Positions 1,897 to 31,702 of a stretch of 33,062 bases of DNA are shown here, one piece after another. Every line of letters starts with the position of its first letter. Within the stretch, counting starts at the first letter, position 1. This DNA comes from Lentisphaeria bacterium (GTDB lineage Bacteria > Verrucomicrobiota > Lentisphaeria > Oligosphaerales > Oligosphaeraceae): the NCBI GenBank assembly GCA_024405215.1, contig JAKSPB010000034.1, positions 1-33,062 on the forward strand, given 5' to 3'. Made by a program: the position numbers and the translations under genes. The notes beneath the pieces were generated by a model. The model made no database searches. It worked only from the letters and a program-made list of their open reading frames with translations, and was not told where the DNA came from.

Positions 1897-2931
1897 TCAG
1901 CCGATGGAATCCAGTGCGTACTGGTGAATGACTTCCACAATTCGGTCGTTCAGCTTTTCGCGAATGAGCTCGCCCACGGCGCGAATGCCGTTTGCCACTG
2001 CATGGGCCTGGAAATTCCCGTGCCCGATAACACAGCATCCTTTGACGCCCAGCAACGGCGCGCCGCCGACTTCGCCAGCGTCGGTCTGCTTTTTCACTTC
2101 CTTGAAGGCGCCTTTGGAGAGCAAACCGCCCATCTTCCACCAGAACTTCTGCATGACCTGCCCCTTGATCATATTCGACATGGACTTGCAGAGCTGCTCG
2201 CTGGTCTTCAGGACAACATTGCCCACGAAGCCGTCGCAGACCACCACATCCACCTTGCCGCAGAAGAGGTCATGACCTTCCACGTTGCCAATGAAATTGA
2301 TCCCCGGGATATTCTTGATCAGCCCGAACGCATCCTGGACCTGCTTGTTCCCCTTGCCCTCTTCCGTTCCGTTGGAAAGGAGGCCAATGCGAGGATTCGC
2401 CAACTTGAGCGTCTGCTTCGCATACAGATCGCCCATAATGGCGAACTGCGCCAGAACCGACGGCGTACAATCTACCGTCGCACCGGAATCCATCAGAATC
2501 CACGGCTCTTTCTCGCCCGGCATGACCGTCGCGATACCCGGTCGCGCCAATCCCTCCAGCATACGCCATTTGAGGAAGGACGCTCCCACGGCCGCACCCG
2601 TGTTTCCGGCGCTGAATACGCCACCCGCACGACCGGCCTTCACCATGTCCATCGCAACACCAATGGAGCTGTTGCGCTTTTCCCGAAGGGCCTTCACCGG
2701 ATGCTCGTTCATCCCCACGACTTCCGGGGCGTGCACGAACTCCAGCCGGGAATCCTCGGCGTTCACACCGAGTTCCACCAATCCTTTCCGGACCACCTCC
2801 TGATCGCCTACCAGGAGATAACGATACGCGTCTCCGAAACGCTCCAGCGCTTCGGCTACGCCGCCCGTAATTGCGGACGGCGCAAAATCCCCGCCCATCA
2901 TATCCACTGCTACGATGACATCGGATGCCAT
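1897..2931 (-). CDS. plsX: Phosphate acyltransferase PlsX
   Basis: Converts acyl-ACP to acyl-phosphate, the donor for PlsY in phosphatidic acid synthesis; a peripheral membrane enzyme in its family. The 344-residue protein starts with IVAVDMMGGDFAP, the family signature. It also contains VVVCDGFVGNVVLKTSE and a GGAPLLGVKG segment, both typical of PlsX. The ATG at 2931 has a strong SD (AAGGAGG, 8 nt spacing) that lies inside the end of rpmF, and the first 22 nt overlap rpmF. The rpmF-plsX-fab order is a widely conserved lipid/ribosome cluster, which supports the call. Confidence 0.97.
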   Translation of the reverse strand: MASDVIVAVDMMGGDFAPSAITGGVAEALERFGDAYRYLLVGDQEVVRKGLVELGVNAEDSRLEFVHAPEVVGMNEHPVKALREKRNSSIGVAMDMVKAGRAGGVFSAGNTGAAVGASFLKWRMLEGLARPGIATVMPGEKEPWILMDSGATVDCTPSVLAQFAIMGDLYAKQTLKLANPRIGLLSNGTEEGKGNKQVQDAFGLIKNIPGINFIGNVEGHDLFCGKVDVVVCDGFVGNVVLKTSEQLCKSMSNMIKGQVMQKFWWKMGGLLSKGAFKEVKKQTDAGEVGGAPLLGVKGCCVIGHGNFQAHAVANGIRAVGELIREKLNDRIVEVIHQYALDSIG

Positions 2932-3146
2932 AGGCGGGGCCTCCTTATGGGTTGTGCCTTAGCGGCCGTCTGCATGATCTGCCGGGCCTGGTGGCCATCA
3001 TAGAAACCGCACTTGGTGCAGACACGGTGAGGCAGGCACGCGGCACCGCAATTGGTGCAGGTATGGGGTTCCAGACCCTCATAGCGCTTGGAGGCCTTGC
3101 GCTGACGGACACGCATCTTGCTACGCTTGCATTGCTGAACAGCCAT
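2910..3146 (-). CDS. rpmF: 50S ribosomal protein L32, with C-terminal extension
   Basis: A component of the large ribosomal subunit. The N-terminus is basic (CKRSKMRVRQRKASKRY). The zinc-ribbon cysteines are Cys30, Cys33, Cys43 and Cys46 (CTNC and CTKC). At 78 residues it is about 20 longer than most L32 proteins. The extra tail (about residues 56-78) is the part that carries the plsX SD and overlaps the plsX start by 22 nt. The start at 3146 has AAGGA a few bases upstream. The gene sits between yceD and plsX, the classic arrangement. Confidence 0.95.
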   Translation of the reverse strand: MAVQQCKRSKMRVRQRKASKRYEGLEPHTCTNCGAACLPHRVCTKCGFYDGHQARQIMQTAAKAQPIRRPRLWHPMSS

Positions 3147-3204
3147 TGTTCCTTAACTCCTTTGGGTTGCTTGTGTTTTGGATTCTGAAAAAAAATCCGA
3201 AATT

Positions 3205-3714
3205 CTATTTTTCCAGCTGGTCAAGAGCCGCCCAGGGATTGTCCTCATCCTCCTCGCCGGAGTCGTCTGGACAATCGCAGGGACCGTCATTCCAGTTGGC
3301 ACCACATCTGGGACAAAGCCCCAGACAATCCTCCTTGCAGAGGAAATGCTGCGGAAAAGTAATTAATATATCCTCTCGAAGCGCATCTGACAGGTCAATC
3401 GTGGTACCAAATGCATTTTCGAACTCATGACAGACCTCATCCGTCTCAATTGGCCACGGGAAAACGCCCTCGCAACGGTCGCAGACACAGTCCATGGCAG
3501 TCTTGAGACCTCCCGTGACCAGCAAATCGTTTCCGCCGTTGATGGCCTCCAGATGAAGATGGTATTCCACTGGGGCGGTGAACCAGAAGCGCTCCTCGTC
3601 CTCCAGCCCCAGTTCCAAGGCGGGGACCGATCCATCCAGATCCACCCCCCGAGGCGGCAAATCGACCAAGTCGAACTGCACGCCCTTCACCGGCTTGTTG
3701 GAAAATTCGCTCAT
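3205..3714 (-). CDS. yceD: YceD/DUF177 family protein, rRNA-associated
   Basis: The 169-residue protein belongs to the DUF177/YceD family, implicated in 23S rRNA accumulation in bacteria and plants and commonly encoded just before rpmF. The first cysteine group is C-x-C-x2-C at residues 76-81 (CVCDRC). The second group is C-x3-C-x3-C-x2-C at 126-137 (CKEDCLGLCPRC), followed by CDC at 146-148. The tail is acidic, and the C-terminal segment NPWAALDQL is a family hallmark. It starts 12 nt after the dapA stop, with no clear SD, suggesting translational coupling to dapA. The role is inferred from family and position. Confidence 0.9.
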   Translation of the reverse strand: MSEFSNKPVKGVQFDLVDLPPRGVDLDGSVPALELGLEDEERFWFTAPVEYHLHLEAINGGNDLLVTGGLKTAMDCVCDRCEGVFPWPIETDEVCHEFENAFGTTIDLSDALREDILITFPQHFLCKEDCLGLCPRCGANWNDGPCDCPDDSGEEDEDNPWAALDQLEK

Positions 3715-3726
3715 GAAGACAGGGAA

Positions 3727-4599
3727 CTAGATGAGATCCAGCTTGTGGAGGGTATTGCGCAGGATTTCCCGGTTGGCGGCGCCCATCTCGCAAAGCGGCA
3801 GGCGGTATTCCTCGGCCAGGAGCCCCATGTCGGCCAGCGCCGCCTTGACGGGAATGGGATTGGCCTCCAGGAAGAGGTCGTGAGCCAGAGGATAATAGCG
3901 CCTGTGGATGGCGTAGGCGCCGGCGAAATCGTTGGCCAACGCCATCTGGCACATCTTCACGTAGGCCTCGGGAGCCACGTTGGACAGAACGCTGATGACG
4001 CCCGTGGCGCCCACGGACATCATGGGCAGGGCCAGGCTGTCGTCGCCGGAAAGAACCGTCAGATCGCACATGTTGCGAATGGCGTTGACGCGCTCCACGC
4101 TGCCGGCCGCCTCCTTGATGGCGGCCACCTGGGGATGTTTGGAAAGGCGCAGAACCACATCCAGCGGAATCTCCTTGCCCGTGCGGCCAGGCACATTGTA
4201 GAGGACGACGGGGAGCTTGGTGCACTCCGCCGTGGCCACGAAATGACGGTAGAGACCTTCACTGGAGGGCTTGTTGTAGTAGGGGGTCACCTGCAAAGTG
4301 GCGTCCACGGGCATATCCTCGACGGCCTTCGTCAGGCGGATCGCCTCTTCCGTGGAGTTTGCGCCGGTTCCCGCGATGATCTGGCAACGGCGGTTGGCTT
4401 TCTCCGCCACGAAACGGATCACATCCAGATGCTCCTCCACGGTGACAGTGGGGGATTCGCCCGTGGTCCCCACGGGAATGATTCCGGAAACACCCGCGGC
4501 AATCTGGCGTTCAACCAGCGCCTCCAGGCAAGGATAGTCGACTTTTCCGTTGCGGAATGGAGTGACAAGCGCAGTGTAGACACCTTGAAGCTTCAACAT
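3727..4599 (-). CDS. dapA: 4-hydroxy-tetrahydrodipicolinate synthase DapA
   Basis: Condenses pyruvate with aspartate semialdehyde, the first committed step to lysine and diaminopimelate. The 290-residue TIM barrel has GTTGES at residues 44-49, Tyr108 in YYNKPSSEGLY, Tyr134 in VVLYNVPGRTG with Arg139, and the Schiff-base Lys162 in AAIKEAAG. All key residues of the E. coli enzyme are present. The ATG at 4599 gives the canonical LQGVYTALVTPF start. A frame extension to 4680 encodes an A/T-rich, phenylalanine-rich stretch and is rejected. No SD precedes the ATG; the upstream 60 nt are a long pyrimidine run on the coding strand. About 115 nt separate it from queA. Confidence 0.97.
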   Translation of the reverse strand: MLKLQGVYTALVTPFRNGKVDYPCLEALVERQIAAGVSGIIPVGTTGESPTVTVEEHLDVIRFVAEKANRRCQIIAGTGANSTEEAIRLTKAVEDMPVDATLQVTPYYNKPSSEGLYRHFVATAECTKLPVVLYNVPGRTGKEIPLDVVLRLSKHPQVAAIKEAAGSVERVNAIRNMCDLTVLSGDDSLALPMMSVGATGVISVLSNVAPEAYVKMCQMALANDFAGAYAIHRRYYPLAHDLFLEANPIPVKAALADMGLLAEEYRLPLCEMGAANREILRNTLHKLDLI

Positions 4600-4714: not shown

Positions 4715-5779
4715 TCAAGCGGGATTCGGGACAACGCCGCGTCCTGGCGGCAAGAGAAGCATGCAGTCTCCGTAGCTGAAGAAACGGTAGCGCATCCGGA
4801 TGGCGTCGCGATAGGCGGCCATTACCGCATCGTAAGGCGCGAAGCAGCAGACCAGCATCAGTAGCGTGGACTGCGGGAGATGGAAGTTCGTGAGCAGGCC
4901 GTCCGCCACGTGGGGCTTCTTGGGCGGATAGAGGAAGATGCTGGTGCGGCCGCTGCCGGCTCTGACGAATCCCGTGTCGCCGTCGGCGCAGGTCTCCACC
5001 GTGCGAACGGAAGTGGTCCCCATGCAGAAGACCTTCCCGCCATTGCGGTGCGTGGAGTTGATGATTTCCGCAGCCTCATCGGAAAGCGTGTAGCGCTCCT
5101 CGTGCATCACGTGCCCCTCGACAGTCTCGCTCTCCACGGGCTTGAACGTGCCTGCGCCCACATGAAGCGTCAGACGGGCGATGCGCACGCCTTTGGCCTC
5201 CAGTTCCGCCAGGATCTCCGGCGTCATGTGAAGCCCCGCCGTAGGGCACGCCACGCTGCCGGGATTGGCCGCGTAGATCGTCTGGTAATTCTCCTTGTCG
5301 GACTCCTCCGCCTCGCGGTTGATGTAGGGAGGCAGCGGAGTCTTGCCGTATTTCTCCAGAATGGAAAGCACATCCTCGTCGTCGAACTCCACGATGCAGG
5401 CGCCGTCGGGCTCCTTCTCCAGCACGGTAAGCCCCGTGCCCGCGCCCTCCAGGATCACGCGTGCGCCGATGCGCAGGCGCCGTCCGGGCTTCAGGAAGAC
5501 CTGCCATTTGCGCCCGCCTCGGCTTTCCAGCATGAAGACCTGGACCCGTCCATGGCTTTCCGGGCGTTCCCCCCAGAGTCTGGCGGGAATGACCCGCGTA
5601 TCGTTGATGACCAGGCAGTCTCCCTCGTGGAGATACTCCGCGAAATGGTGGAAATCGGAAGAGAGGCGTTCCCCCGTCTCCCGTTCCAGGATCAGCATCC
5701 GTGCGGCGGCGCGGTCTTCCAGGGGCCGCTGAGCGATCAGCTCCTGCGGCAACTCGAAATCAAAATCGGAAACAAGCAT
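4715..5779 (-). CDS. queA: S-adenosylmethionine:tRNA ribosyltransferase-isomerase QueA
   Basis: Transfers and isomerises the ribosyl moiety of SAM onto preQ1 in tRNA, forming epoxyqueuosine. The 354-residue protein is full length for the family. It contains the N-terminal FDFELPQELIAQ-PL signature, LVINDTRVIPARL, NYQTIYA-PGSVACPTAGLHMT, LTLHVGAGTFKPV and the C-terminal NFHLPQSTLLMLV block. The start at 5779 lies 12 nt downstream of the smpB stop. AGGAAG just after that stop is spaced about 10 nt from the ATG. It shares the same strand and cluster with smpB and dapA. Confidence 0.97.
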   Translation of the reverse strand: MLVSDFDFELPQELIAQRPLEDRAAARMLILERETGERLSSDFHHFAEYLHEGDCLVINDTRVIPARLWGERPESHGRVQVFMLESRGGRKWQVFLKPGRRLRIGARVILEGAGTGLTVLEKEPDGACIVEFDDEDVLSILEKYGKTPLPPYINREAEESDKENYQTIYAANPGSVACPTAGLHMTPEILAELEAKGVRIARLTLHVGAGTFKPVESETVEGHVMHEERYTLSDEAAEIINSTHRNGGKVFCMGTTSVRTVETCADGDTGFVRAGSGRTSIFLYPPKKPHVADGLLTNFHLPQSTLLMLVCCFAPYDAVMAAYRDAIRMRYRFFSYGDCMLLLPPGRGVVPNPA

Positions 5780-5791
5780 CTTTTCGACTTC

Positions 5792-6241
5792 CTACGCGCC
5801 CTTGATTGCGCGTTCGACTTCCCGTTTGTCCATCTGTTCCTTCAGGGCCTCGCGCTTGTCCTGGAGATTCTTTCCGCGGCACAGGCCGATATTCAGCTTG
5901 ATGTGTCCGCGATCATCGAAATAGGCATCCAGCGGAATAATGGTCAATCCTTTGGCCTCCGTGGCGCGCTTCAGCTTGCGAATCTCCTTCTTGTGGAGAA
6001 GAAGCTGGCGCTGTCGGGTGGGCGCATGGTTGTTGTAGCTGCCCATGGCATACGGCGCGATATTGCTGCCGATCAGCTGCGCGCTGCCCTTGGCGTCAAT
6101 GGCCACATAGGCCTGCGCCAGGGACATCCCGGCATTGCGGCAGGACTTGACCTCCGTCCCCGTCAGCGAAATTCCCGCCTGAAGTTTCTCCAGGACCTGG
6201 TAGTCGTGGAAAGCTCTCTTGTTTTGACAGATATTTTTCAT
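5792..6241 (-). CDS. smpB: SsrA-binding protein SmpB
   Basis: Binds tmRNA and delivers it to stalled ribosomes for trans-translation. The 149-residue protein has the conserved opening NKRAFHDYQVLEKLQAGISL-TGTEVKS, the PYAMGSYNNHAPTRQRQLLLHKKEI loop region, LTIIPLDAYFDDRGHIKLNIGLCRGKN, and a lysine/arginine-rich C-terminal helix. All blocks match the family. It follows the glycosyltransferase gene by 56 nt. No evident SD precedes the ATG. The tmRNA gene itself is not seen in this window. Confidence 0.97.
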   Translation of the reverse strand: MKNICQNKRAFHDYQVLEKLQAGISLTGTEVKSCRNAGMSLAQAYVAIDAKGSAQLIGSNIAPYAMGSYNNHAPTRQRQLLLHKKEIRKLKRATEAKGLTIIPLDAYFDDRGHIKLNIGLCRGKNLQDKREALKEQMDKREVERAIKGA

Positions 6242-6297
6242 AGCACCGTTTCAGAGTGATGACATAATATAACCGAAAGAAACCATGCCGTTTTCCG

Positions 6298-7128
6298 CTA
6301 ATGGAAAATCCCCTGGCAGAGCCTGGCCAGGAGATGCCAGAGCGGCCAGACAAACCGCCTCGCCCAGGACCACCCCCAATACTTCCGCGCAGTCAGCAGG
6401 AAGCTCCGGCGGTAGAGCCGGTAGATCCGCCAGCTGGAAAGCGCCTTCTTGATGGTGGCGCTGCCCAGATGGGTGACCCGTGATTCTGAAAGATACCACG
6501 TGCCCAGTCCACGCTTCTGGAACTTCTCGCCCAGCACCGGCTCCTCGAAGAAAAGAAAATACTCCTCGTCAAAACCGCCGACGGCGAAAAAGGCCTCCGC
6601 CCGTACCAGCAACACGCATCCACGGACCGCGTAGCATGGACGGGACGGCCCGCCGAATGGCGACCGCCAACGACGGAACCGCTCCTTCGCCCCAAGGTCG
6701 GCCGCGGTGTCCCAAGGAGACTGCGGAAGACCGTCCGTCCCCTGCACATCAGGGCCGACGATACCGCATTCCGGATGCGTCTCCAGGAACTCCACCATCC
6801 GTTCCAGACGGGAGTTCTCGTCGAAAAGCACATCGTCGTTGCAGACGAGAAGATACTTCAGGCCGGGACAATGCGTCCTCAGCGCTTCCGCGCCCCGGTT
6901 GTTCCCCCGGGAATACCCCAGATTTTCGGCAAAGAAAAGCCTCAGGCAGGACGCAGGAAGATTCTCCTCAAGACATGCCTGGGTCTCTTTCGTGGACGCC
7001 ACGTCCACCACGCAAGCGGCCACAGGAAACGGCAGCCTGGGCAGCTGTTCCTTCACAAAGGCGCAGGTCCGTTCAGGAGAACGGAATCCCACGACCACGA
7101 CTCCGATGACAGGGAACTCTTCCGACAT
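6298..7128 (-). CDS. Family 2 glycosyltransferase (rhamnosyltransferase-like)
   Basis: Likely transfers a sugar from a nucleotide donor to a cell-surface glycan acceptor in the cytosol; donor and acceptor cannot be read from sequence. The 276-residue protein has a GT-A fold. The nucleotide-binding strand is VIGVVVVGFRSPERT (residues 7-21). ENLGYSRGNNRG (68-79) and the metal-binding NDD (97-99) follow. The acceptor-side segment VGGFDEEYFLFFEEPVLGEKF (183-203) resembles the FDE-FFEE-D motif of rhamnosyltransferases, but with PVLG in place of the usual VDLC. The C-terminus is basic and tryptophan-rich, possibly membrane-associating. Its ATG starts one base after the typA stop, so it is translationally coupled to typA, an unusual partner. 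Confidence 0.85.
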   Translation of the reverse strand: MSEEFPVIGVVVVGFRSPERTCAFVKEQLPRLPFPVAACVVDVASTKETQACLEENLPASCLRLFFAENLGYSRGNNRGAEALRTHCPGLKYLLVCNDDVLFDENSRLERMVEFLETHPECGIVGPDVQGTDGLPQSPWDTAADLGAKERFRRWRSPFGGPSRPCYAVRGCVLLVRAEAFFAVGGFDEEYFLFFEEPVLGEKFQKRGLGTWYLSESRVTHLGSATIKKALSSWRIYRLYRRSFLLTARKYWGWSWARRFVWPLWHLLARLCQGIFH

Positions 7129-22563: not shown

Positions 22564-23670
22564 CTACTGGATGATACCACCGGAATCGGTGAGGAAGATT
22601 CCCTTGAAGTTCATCTTCAGAGCCTGCGGATTGTCCGAGAGCTCCAGAGCCTTCTCTTCAGAAATGTCACCGTTGTTGTAGTGCTTCAGGAGGCACTGGT
22701 TGAAGGTCATCATGCCCGCTTCCTCGTTGGCCTCGATGGCCTGCTGCAACTTGTCAATGCGGCCATCGAAGATCAACTTCTTCACAATAGGAACGTTGGT
22801 CATGATTTCCGTGATGGGCACGACACCCTTTCCGGAGGCCTTCTTGGCCAGACGCTGGCAGATGATTGCCTTCACCACATCGGAGAGGGACTTGCGGATG
22901 GAATCGCGCTCCTCGATGGTGAACATGTCCAGGATACGGTTGATGGACTGGGGGGCATCCTTGGTATGCAAGGTGGTGATCACCATGTGACCGGTTTCGG
23001 CAGCCGCCAGAGCGGTCTCGAAGGTGACACGGTTGCGCATTTCGCCGACGACGATGATATCGGGATCCTGACGCAGGGCATGAACCAGGGCGGATTCAAA
23101 AGTCTCCGCATCCAAACCAACCTCGCGCTGTTCAAAGAAGGACTTGTTGTCCTCGAAGGTGTATTCGATAGGATCCTCGATGGTGATGATGTGCTTCTGG
23201 AAATTCGTGTTGATGAAATCCAGCATGGCGGCCATGGTGGTGGACTTGCCGCTGCCCGTGGTGCCCGTGATGAAGATGATGCCGTTGCTGTTGGAGGCAA
23301 TATCCTTCAGCACTTCCGGCAGACCGGCTTCCTTCACCGTGGGGGCCTTGCTCTTGACCCAGCGCATGGTAATGCCACGATCGCCGCGCTGCAAGTGCAG
23401 GTTCACACGGAAACGCCCGACATCGGGTTCCTGCCAGGCGAAGTCCAGGTCGCCTTTCGCCTTGAACTCCTCGTATTTCCCTGCGGGAACGATGTCATTG
23501 CAGAACTGGTTGAAGATCGTCGAGTCCGTCTCATAGTCCAGCTGCACCAGATTGGAATCTATGCGGAGCTGGACATTCTTGTTCTCTCGGATGTGCAAGT
23601 CACTGGCCCGCTCGTCCACTGCGTATTTCAGCAGGTCGTGCAGGCATGACGTTTTGAGTTGTACAGCCAT
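22564..23670 (-). CDS. pilT: Twitching motility / pilus retraction ATPase PilT
   Basis: A hexameric cytosolic ATPase of the type II/IV secretion family that powers depolymerisation of type IV pili. The 368-residue protein contains an N-terminal PAS-like domain (ASDLHIRENKNVQLRID), Walker A GTTGSGKST (136-144), the Asp box ITIEDPIEY (162-170), Walker B DPDIIVVGEMR (202-212) and the His box TGHMVITTLHT (226-236). A C-terminal effector region follows. A clear PilT AIRNLIRE motif is not seen, so a PilU-like role is possible. It lies 63 nt after phosphofructokinase and just before the small membrane protein and dxr. Pilus structural genes are not adjacent; the window's pseudopilins are elsewhere. 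An AGGG lies about 5 nt before the ATG. Confidence 0.93.
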   Translation of the reverse strand: MAVQLKTSCLHDLLKYAVDERASDLHIRENKNVQLRIDSNLVQLDYETDSTIFNQFCNDIVPAGKYEEFKAKGDLDFAWQEPDVGRFRVNLHLQRGDRGITMRWVKSKAPTVKEAGLPEVLKDIASNSNGIIFITGTTGSGKSTTMAAMLDFINTNFQKHIITIEDPIEYTFEDNKSFFEQREVGLDAETFESALVHALRQDPDIIVVGEMRNRVTFETALAAAETGHMVITTLHTKDAPQSINRILDMFTIEERDSIRKSLSDVVKAIICQRLAKKASGKGVVPITEIMTNVPIVKKLIFDGRIDKLQQAIEANEEAGMMTFNQCLLKHYNNGDISEEKALELSDNPQALKMNFKGIFLTDSGGIIQ

Positions 23671-29190: not shown

Positions 29191-30003
29191 ATGAAAAAAT
29201 CCTTCACCCTGATTGAGCTGCTGGTGGTCATCGCCATCATCGCCATCCTGGCCTCCATGCTCCTGCCCGCCCTCTCCAAGGCCCGCGAAAAGGCCCGCGC
29301 CATCTCCTGCATCAACAACCTGAAGCAGCTTGGCCTGGGCACCATCCTCTACACCAACGACTCTGACGACTACTACCATCCCTCCAAGTGGGGCAAGAAG
29401 GCCGGCTACGACAGCGGCGACAACTGCTACTACTACTGCTTCAACCAGCTGTGCACCACCGGCAGCACCTATCCTGCCAAGACCGGCGAACTGGCCACGA
29501 AGGGCGAAGGCGCCTGGAAACTGTGGCAGTGCCCCAGCTTCGGCGCCAACGCCTGGGAAGAGAACTGGAAGGGCGCTCCCAAGACAACCCGTCCAAAGAC
29601 CGGCTATCAGTACAATCCCGGAGCCGGCTACAACACCCAGATCGACCCCGCAGTCGATGACAGCGGCAACGCCTCCTCCTACACTGGCTGGGGTGCCAAG
29701 GCCGGTTGGGTCCGCTGCGTTCAGCCCACCTCTCCCAGCAACTTCATCCTCTACCTGGATCGCTGCTCCTTCGCCGGCAATGGCGGCAGCTGGGTCTTCT
29801 GGTATTGCATCAACCACGACTTTGGTCTGACCATCAAGGAAGTCGAAAACGAATACTGCCGCCACGGCGGATTAAACCAGCAGGTCTACGCCGATGGCCA
29901 CGCCGCCACCGTGAAGTGGAGCGACCTGGACGCCCTCGGCAACTCCGGCGACGGCGACACCAGCAAGATCGCCATGCAGATCGGCGGCGACGGCAAGGAC
30001 TAA
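29191..30003 (+). CDS. Type II pseudopilin-like protein, H-X9-DG type
   Basis: An exported protein of 270 residues with the pilin-like N-terminus [24 protein letters not shown]. It should be cleaved before Phe5 by prepilin peptidase, although -1 is Ser rather than Gly. Glu9 is the conserved +5 glutamate. [23 protein letters not shown] continues the helix. [14 protein letters not shown] gives the canonical H-X9-DG motif (His225, Asp235-Gly236). The middle is rich in Gly, Tyr, Trp and Cys, suggesting a disulfide-stabilised extracellular domain. The ATG at 29191 follows AAAGGA with 8-9 nt spacing; an in-frame upstream extension to 29128 is rejected. No assembly genes are adjacent. It has its own promoter and terminator. 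Confidence 0.92.
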
Positions 30004-30029: not shown

Positions 30030-30076
30030 CACAAGCCCTTGGTGATTCTCCTTCATCAAGGGCTTGTGATGATTTT
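30030..30076 (+). terminator. Hairpin terminator after the plus-strand pseudopilin
   Basis: A 12-bp perfect stem (CACAAGCCCTTG / CAAGGGCTTGTG; arms 30030-30041 and 30057-30068) has a 15-nt loop and is followed by ATGATTTTGG. The T run is short, so termination may be partial. Confidence 0.75.
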
Positions 30077-30132: not shown

Positions 30133-31149
30133 ATGTGCAATACCCAAAAGACGTGCGATGAAAAGTGCCACTGCAAGTGCCTTTGCTGGCTCAAGGCCGT
30201 CATCTGCCTGGCCATCGTCATCGGTGTAGCAGTCGCCGCATATGTCATTGGACGCAACATTCAACGCAAGGCGCAGATCCCCGTCCTCCTGGCAGCAGCG
30301 GAAACCGACTTGGACGCAGGGAAACTCTATTCCGCCATGAGCAATCTCTCTTCCGCCTGTTCTTTGGGAGCCTTGCCGGAACAAACGGATGGCTTGAAGA
30401 ACAAAATCAAAGAGGCACTCTCTTCCAAGGCCCTCTCCTTTGTCATCGCAGGACAGGCAATTCAGATGTGCTATTGTCCGGAAGGCACATTCCTGATGGG
30501 CAGCGACAAGAAAGAAAAAGTCCGCCAGGACGATGAAGTGCTCCATGAAGTCACCATCACCAAGCCCTATTGGCTGGGCGCCTGTGAAATCAACCAGGCC
30601 ATCTGGAATGCGGTGATGGGAACCAACAACAGCCATTTCAAAAGCGACGAGAATCCCGTCGAGGAAATCAACTGGGACCAGGCAAAGGAGTTCTGCGAAA
30701 AGCTCAATGCGGACGCGAACATCGTCCGTCCAGAAGGCTATCGTTTTTCCCTTCCCACGGAAGCCCAGTGGGAGATGGCCTGCCGGGCGGGAAGCGCAGC
30801 CGCATACTCCGGCGCCCTCCTGGATGACATCTGCTGGTTTGCCGGCAACGGCGAATACAAGACCCATCCTGTCGGTTCCAAGGCCCCGAATCTCCTCGGC
30901 CTGCATGACATGCACGGCAACGTCTGGGAATGGTGCCTGGACGCCTATGACGAATATCCCGATACCGCCGTGACGGATCCACTTGTGCAAGGCGAACTGA
31001 ATGCCAAGCGCGTTTACCGGGGAGGCAGCTGGGGCTACGAGGCCGATTCCTGCCGTTCCGCCTCGCGCGCGAAAAACCACACCAGGAACATCAACCACGA
31101 CCTGGGCTTCCGATTGGCGCTCATTCCCGATGACATATCTTTGAAATAG
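30133..31149 (+). CDS. Membrane-anchored SUMF1/FGE-fold protein, Cys-rich N-terminus
   Basis: A 338-residue protein. Residues 2-18 contain six cysteines (2, 8, 12, 14, 16, 18; CHCKCLCW), then one transmembrane helix (about 19-40), a helical linker (45-110), and a formylglycine-generating-enzyme-type domain from about 113. Domain motifs are GTFLMGS (118-124), LPTEAQWEMACRAG (207-220), GNVWEWC (262-268), RGGSW (296-300) and a final GFRL (325-328). True FGEs have two active-site cysteines just after the GGSW region; here only Cys307 is seen, so sulfatase activation is unlikely and a binding or other oxidative role is more plausible. The cysteine cluster would lie on the cytoplasmic side and might bind metal. 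No SD. It forms a likely operon with the next gene, 55 nt away. Confidence 0.82.
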   Translation: MCNTQKTCDEKCHCKCLCWLKAVICLAIVIGVAVAAYVIGRNIQRKAQIPVLLAAAETDLDAGKLYSAMSNLSSACSLGALPEQTDGLKNKIKEALSSKALSFVIAGQAIQMCYCPEGTFLMGSDKKEKVRQDDEVLHEVTITKPYWLGACEINQAIWNAVMGTNNSHFKSDENPVEEINWDQAKEFCEKLNADANIVRPEGYRFSLPTEAQWEMACRAGSAAAYSGALLDDICWFAGNGEYKTHPVGSKAPNLLGLHDMHGNVWEWCLDAYDEYPDTAVTDPLVQGELNAKRVYRGGSWGYEADSCRSASRAKNHTRNINHDLGFRLALIPDDISLK

Positions 31150-31204
31150 CCATCGCCGTCAGAAGTTCCCCTTTTCACAAGCAACCACCTAACAGGAAAA
31201 CACC

Positions 31205-31639
31205 ATGGGCAATACCAAGAAAGCCGTCATTTCCATCATCCTCATCATCCTGGCCACCTTCGCCATCGTCCTCCAGGTAAAGCACAACACCAAAGGCGAC
31301 GCGCAACAGACTGCGGAACAGGCAGCTGCGCAGCTGGAGAAGATGAGCGGGGCCCAAAGCATCTTCAACTCCGCCGTGGAACAGGCGTCAAAATCCGGCT
31401 GGTCCACCACAGGCAAATATTGGAAGACCGGCGCCCTCAACGGCATGGTCAAGAAAAACCTTGACACGGTCTTCGGGAAGTCCTTCAACGTTGGCGACGT
31501 AACCAACCAGAACTTCAACCGCGACTCGGAAAACAACCAGGATTGCGTTGTTTTCCAGTTCCAGGGAAAGAGCTACATCATGCACTTCGTGAAAGACAAG
31601 AAGGGGAATTACCTGCTGACGGATTTCGCCCTCTACTAA
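31205..31639 (+). CDS. Small membrane-anchored protein of unknown function
   Basis: A 144-residue protein with an N-terminal transmembrane helix (about residues 6-23, AVISIILIILATFAIVLQV) and a soluble domain of about 115 residues presumably outside the cytoplasm. The domain is alanine/glutamine-rich and helical at first (QQTAEQAAAQLEKM). It then has a compact part with CVVFQFQGKSYIMHFVKDK-KGNYLLTDFALY, which looks like an antiparallel sheet. No family is recognised. AGGA lies 9 nt before the ATG. It is downstream of the SUMF1-fold gene in the same direction and is followed by a strong hairpin. Confidence 0.82.
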   Translation: MGNTKKAVISIILIILATFAIVLQVKHNTKGDAQQTAEQAAAQLEKMSGAQSIFNSAVEQASKSGWSTTGKYWKTGALNGMVKKNLDTVFGKSFNVGDVTNQNFNRDSENNQDCVVFQFQGKSYIMHFVKDKKGNYLLTDFALY

Positions 31640-31669: not shown

Positions 31670-31702
31670 GCGCCCCGGCTGTCCTTCAGCCGGGGCGCCT
31701 TT
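31670..31702 (+). terminator. Hairpin terminator after the small membrane protein
   Basis: A 12-bp perfect GC-rich stem (GCGCCCCGGCTG / CAGCCGGGGCGC; arms 31670-31681 and 31687-31698) with a 5-nt loop is followed by CTTTG. It separates the two-gene unit from carB. Confidence 0.8.

Follow-up and report, generated by a model that had tools for sequence, protein, structure and literature searches.

A single-pass membrane protein with a degenerate SUMF1/FGE domain, a small anchored partner from a new protein family and an adjacent pseudopilin probably form one module, in which the SUMF1 fold would serve as a membrane-tethered, non-catalytic binding ectodomain near pilus-like or type II secretion structures. 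The genes are located in a window of 33,062 nucleotides (the whole stretch of DNA analysed), which represents contig 28 in the 2.98-Mb draft assembly (G000) of a Lentisphaeria bacterium. The initial annotation had proposed a membrane unit of two genes, one of them coding for a degenerate SUMF1 domain; this was upheld, with the two genes kept as neighbours, together with the pseudopilin, in the congener G027. The features of the region are:

29191-30003, + strand: pseudopilin/prepilin of 270 amino acids with an IELL-type prepilin motif and DUF1559 (Pfam N_methyl, e-value: 8e-7; DUF1559, e-value: 3e-8)
30030-30068, + strand: hairpin of 16 pairs downstream of the pseudopilin, probably a terminator separating it from the gene pair
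30133-31149, + strand: SUMF1/FGE-like membrane protein of 338 amino acids (open reading frame list; Pfam PF03781; AF2 model)
30136-30186, + strand: Cys-rich N-terminal head, residues 2-18, with six Cys (sequence count)
30196-30252, + strand: single transmembrane segment, residues ~22-40 (hydropathy; helix 10-57 in the AF2 model)
30316-30423, + strand: two-helix membrane-proximal stalk, residues 62-97 (AF2 helices 62-75 and 84-97, moderate confidence)
30463-31119, + strand: SUMF1/FGE (C-type-lectin-type) domain, residues 111-329 (Pfam; Foldseek)
31036-31038, + strand: codon of Tyr302, at the position of the FGE catalytic Cys336, lost (alignment to human FGE)
31051-31053, + strand: codon of Cys307, at the position of the FGE catalytic Cys341, kept (alignment to human FGE)
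31205-31639, + strand: small anchored partner of 144 amino acids (open reading frame list; hydropathy; model; alignment)
31670-31698, + strand: GC-rich hairpin of 12 pairs at the end of the unit, probably a terminator

The SUMF1-fold open reading frame begins MCNTQKTCDEKCHCKCLCWLKAVICLAIVIG and, as originally described, combines six cysteines within 17 residues, a single transmembrane segment and a SUMF1/FGE domain. The Pfam FGE-sulfatase family (PF03781) matches residues 111-329 along profile positions 4-254 of 255 (Bitscore: 137.9, gathering threshold: 23.3; e-value: 6.3e-40). In the comparison of a profile of 46 aligned relatives with the PDB sequence of human FGE, the human stretch GGSYM-C336-HRSY-C341 aligned with GGSWG-Y302-EADS-C307, which reverses the earlier statement that the second active-site cysteine is lacking: it is the first (Cys336) that is replaced, by Tyr302, while the second (Cys341) is present as Cys307. 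The latter residue is retained in 41/46 aligned relatives, and almost no member of this set carries a Cys at the 336 position in the alignment stretches examined. Loss of the first catalytic cysteine with retention of the second is, judging from these alignments, the pattern of a large bacterial SUMF1-domain family, and both catalytic cysteines together occur in none of the SUMF1 paralogues examined in the same genome. The two active-site cysteines of FGE serve to bind Cu(I) (PMC12123546), and mutation of either one affects the activity of the enzyme (PMC4505483). As the enzyme uses both cysteines and the Cys336 equivalent is lost, formylglycine-generating activity of the window protein is very unlikely, and its SUMF1/FGE annotation should not be taken as sulfatase activation. 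The fold is also common to the enzymes PvdO and EgtB, and Cys307 is strongly conserved, such that an active FGE-like or PvdO/EgtB-like oxidase could be envisaged, which would use this residue to modify the product of the adjacent pilin gene or some exported substrate. We nevertheless consider such an enzyme quite improbable, given the missing Cys336 equivalent, the loss of both catalytic positions in the G027 counterparts described below and scores falling far short of the NCBIfam cut-offs for PvdO, EgtB and GldK.

The AlphaFold model, built with the 46-sequence alignment (pLDDT 87), predicts a long helix (residues 10-57) that includes the transmembrane segment, then a pair of helices close to the membrane and finally the SUMF1 domain. 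Foldseek comparison of this model placed TvpA of Treponema denticola first (5e-20), followed by PvdO (1.5e-16) and human FGE (3.5e-15). In PMC5006420, the FGE-subclass CLec fold is presented as a general motif for ligand binding. TvpA is the variable protein of a diversity-generating retroelement and the best PDB match of the window protein both by sequence and by fold, which would favour a retroelement target here as well. An RVT_1 profile search of the genome, which is 97% complete, gave no reverse transcriptase match while three control genomes were positive, and this reading is therefore not supported and has a negligible probability. The window SUMF1 domain is also matched by a phage family, phrog_18508 (4e-45), whose label 'kinase' is probably wrong for this domain.

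Of all segments in the 22 genes predicted in the window, the head preceding the transmembrane segment is the densest in Cys, with cysteines at positions 2, 8, 12, 14, 16 and 18 (C-x5-C-x3-C-x-C-x-C-x-C). At the regional Cys frequency of 2.1%, six cysteines in 17 residues have a probability of ~1e-6 per 17-residue window. A start codon downstream of the head was considered and rejected, there being no in-frame ATG, GTG or TTG before the transmembrane segment (sequence reading). Residues 1-108 had no homologue at an e-value below 0.01 among 29 genomes of the family or 48 of the order, and the matches between 0.01 and 1 resemble chance transmembrane matches. Furthermore, no comparable head was recovered in a Cys-cluster screen of 141 SUMF1-domain open reading frames, a few of which have zinc-ribbon-like segments, and the CxCxCxC DNA pattern occurs 23 times in the genome against 24 in the control, which gives no enrichment. 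A shared Cys-head module was accordingly discarded, and in the genomes searched the head is private to one protein in one draft genome.

The initial annotation had described a cytoplasmic metal-binding head and would have taken a lack of the Cys-rich N-terminus in homologues as refuting it; the Cys-rich segment itself is present in the sequence, but it is absent from every homologue found and its spacing is not that of a zinc ribbon. The six-Cys N-terminus would thus represent a protein-specific cytoplasmic tail, which may bind metal or may be a by-product of the exchange of a lipoprotein signal for a transmembrane anchor. That it acts as a metal or redox sensor signalling through the membrane to the SUMF1 ectodomain appears improbable: the density of cysteines next to the membrane is very unlikely by composition, and some distant SUMF1-domain proteins (L066, L080 and L100) do carry N-terminal zinc-ribbon-like segments, yet the head is conserved in no relative, its spacing is not that of a zinc ribbon and its DNA pattern is no more frequent than in the control. 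As a separate observation, the SUMF1 lipoprotein L135/L100 (G013:C50) has a zinc-ribbon-like segment, CSECGRECPEGQMLCDEC, following its lipobox.

The charge pattern flanking the transmembrane segment is ambiguous for topology. An extracytoplasmic location of the SUMF1 domain is suggested mainly by its relatives, since lipoprotein-type signals are present in the G027 counterparts, and signal peptides or lipoboxes in the closest relatives (read by eye).

The second protein of the pair had been described as an anchored protein of no recognised family, and this description holds. It comprises an N-terminal hydrophobic, putative transmembrane segment (residues ~7-25), a linker, a W-x6-W region and a C-terminal sheet of four strands predicted at low confidence; a single-sequence structure model (pLDDT 57) was too poor for fold comparison. 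Searches of Pfam, NCBIfam and PHROGs returned only weak sub-cut-off matches, and profile comparison returned none in the PDB. The family, as defined in this analysis, is marked by the N-terminal transmembrane segment and by conserved K6, W66, W73, F90 and K132 in a 10-sequence alignment, traits which the window protein shares. Its profile detects members in 6/48 genomes of the order, confined to the genus of the window (g1) and genus g8, while among 241 genomes of the phylum no convincing further member was found, the one match other than the window's covering only 30 residues of the transmembrane segment. By these searches the partner family is new and narrowly distributed. In g8 the partner genes mostly form tandem pairs, and the genes beside them, identified by eye, encode a HydF-like GTPase and an esterase; no pilin or SUMF1 gene is present at these loci.

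The pseudopilin, SUMF1 and partner genes recur together on contig C56 of the congener G027, where a duplicated array has the order pilin-SUMF1-partner followed by partner-pilin-SUMF1:

1544-2401: first pilin
2469-3290: first SUMF1 lipoprotein open reading frame
3326-3763: first partner
4036-4476: second partner
ending 5499: second pilin
5654-6544: second SUMF1 lipoprotein open reading frame

Both partner copies of G027 are located in this array, and its two pilins are the best two of the 59 G027 matches to the window pilin (e-values: 3e-84 and 2e-80; next: 6e-46), with which they are joined in the tree with moderate support (83/90). The genes flanking the trio differ between the two species, and the trio is therefore conserved more than its surroundings. 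The SUMF1 proteins of the array have lipoprotein-type signals (read by eye) and no Cys head, and their domains form a long branch and have lost both catalytic positions (GGSCNGSGMSAGLYR). They share 38-39% identity with the window domain, as compared to ~50% for unlinked secreted SUMF1 domains of g8, suggesting that the gene in the SUMF1 slot of the array may have been replaced. A clade of the window and array SUMF1 domains is compatible with the AU test (p-AU 0.53), which does not in itself demonstrate one.

As such, conservation of the pair as neighbours, which had been proposed as a check in the Victivallales, stands with the pseudopilin in one congener and fails across that group, the partner family being limited to two genera and in g8 not placed beside a SUMF1 gene. 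In the congener G028 (77% complete), neither a confident partner homologue nor a pilin of the window subfamily was found. The window pilin subfamily is seen, strongly or weakly, only in the six partner-bearing genomes of the 48; with two genera, this co-occurrence may reflect shared ancestry rather than function. The g8 pilins were rejected as part of the module, as those examined adjoin permease or other genes, not SUMF1 or partner genes.

Adjacency in one genome alone means little where pilins are so numerous, and the window genome has 64 pilin matches in addition to 13 SUMF1-domain matching stretches. The window protein could, as such, be an ordinary stray member of a large paralogous SUMF1 family, with a small membrane gene next to it that is unrelated, the two brought together by accident or by a recent local rearrangement, as the separate location of the partner in g8 and the closer relationship of the window SUMF1 domain to unlinked genes might also indicate. 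We consider this unlikely, though deserving of real weight, because the three genes recur in this order in G027, involving both its partner copies and the pilins closest to that of the window, between different flanking genes.

Several additional genes were observed near pilins. Two close paralogues of the window pilin on contigs C22 and C6 of the same genome (L130:1069-3222 and L132:1-1979) each adjoin a membrane protein with a weak Wzy_C match; this match to the O-antigen ligase family is below cut-off, and the protein may be a ligase for pilin glycosylation. Both G027:C56 and the g8 genomes (L096:29-1207; L177-L180) have a permease, by eye of the purine-cytosine type, close to a pilin. Elsewhere in the window (22564-23670, - strand), a T2SSE/PilT-type secretion ATPase is encoded beside a phosphofructokinase gene. 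Short TGTTCA-type tandem repeats were found at contig ends of the genome (G000:C3:30-56 and G000:C16:2-94).

The SUMF1-fold and partner open reading frames are 55 nt apart, and this gap, the two hairpins and the preceding pseudopilin (29191-30003) agree with the initial annotation. Its picture of a hairpin-bounded pair following a pseudopilin was incomplete, as the first hairpin cuts the pair off from the pseudopilin. Counted as a class, terminator-like sites are no more numerous in the sequence than in shuffles, but the two hairpins comprise 16 and 12 pairs, respectively. With hairpins before and after it, the pair looks like a transcription unit of its own, and with one between them the pilin and the pair are probably carried on separate transcripts.

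We suggest that the domain of the SUMF1-fold single-pass protein would be extracytoplasmic and would bind ligands or proteins without catalysis, that the small lineage-restricted single-pass partner would be made together with this protein, and that the two, with the adjacent pseudopilin, would form a module shared by members of the genus, which would most likely act at the cell surface, either on pilus-like or type II secretion structures or beside them. A more specific version, in which pilin, SUMF1 anchor and partner form a surface apparatus that displays or holds a pilus-like fibre and, in this species, the cytoplasmic Cys tail couples it to the metal or redox state, is a long shot. Through the trio, a degenerate SUMF1 protein and a new small family become tied to one clade of pilins, which represents a concrete set to test among the dozens of pseudopilins and several SUMF1-domain genes of this genome.

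A survey of the literature on SUMF1 in Planctomycetes and on DUF1559 pseudopilins found nothing on such a gene pair. The window protein shares with SUMF1/FGE (PF03781) the domain, the fold and the Cys341 equivalent, but has Tyr in place of Cys336 and a membrane anchor, and the positions of the human FGE structural cysteines 346 and 365 also appear to be replaced (alignment reading). With TvpA (2y3c), its closest solved structure (sequence: 8e-28; fold: 5e-20), it shares the FGE-type CLec fold, although it has a transmembrane anchor and a partner gene in a genome where no retroelement was found. PvdO, which functions in pyoverdine maturation, has the fold of the window SUMF1 domain, but the window protein scores 76.2 bits against the NF051459 cut-off of 500. 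GldK/PorK, a lipoprotein of the type IX secretion ring, is likewise a SUMF1-fold envelope protein that works with a partner, PorN/GldN (PDB entries); the window protein scores 84.8 bits against the TIGR03525 cut-off of 350, and its partner matches neither the GldN nor the PorN family. The order of a cytoplasmic part, a transmembrane segment and a SUMF1 domain is shared with kinase-TM-SUMF1 proteins of PVC bacteria, including one from an Opitutaceae genome (L017) and one from the window's own genome (L006; G000:C16:9431-11164), where a single very long open reading frame joins a kinase-like protein, a transmembrane segment and two tandem SUMF1 domains. In place of the kinase, the window protein has an 18-residue Cys-rich tail.
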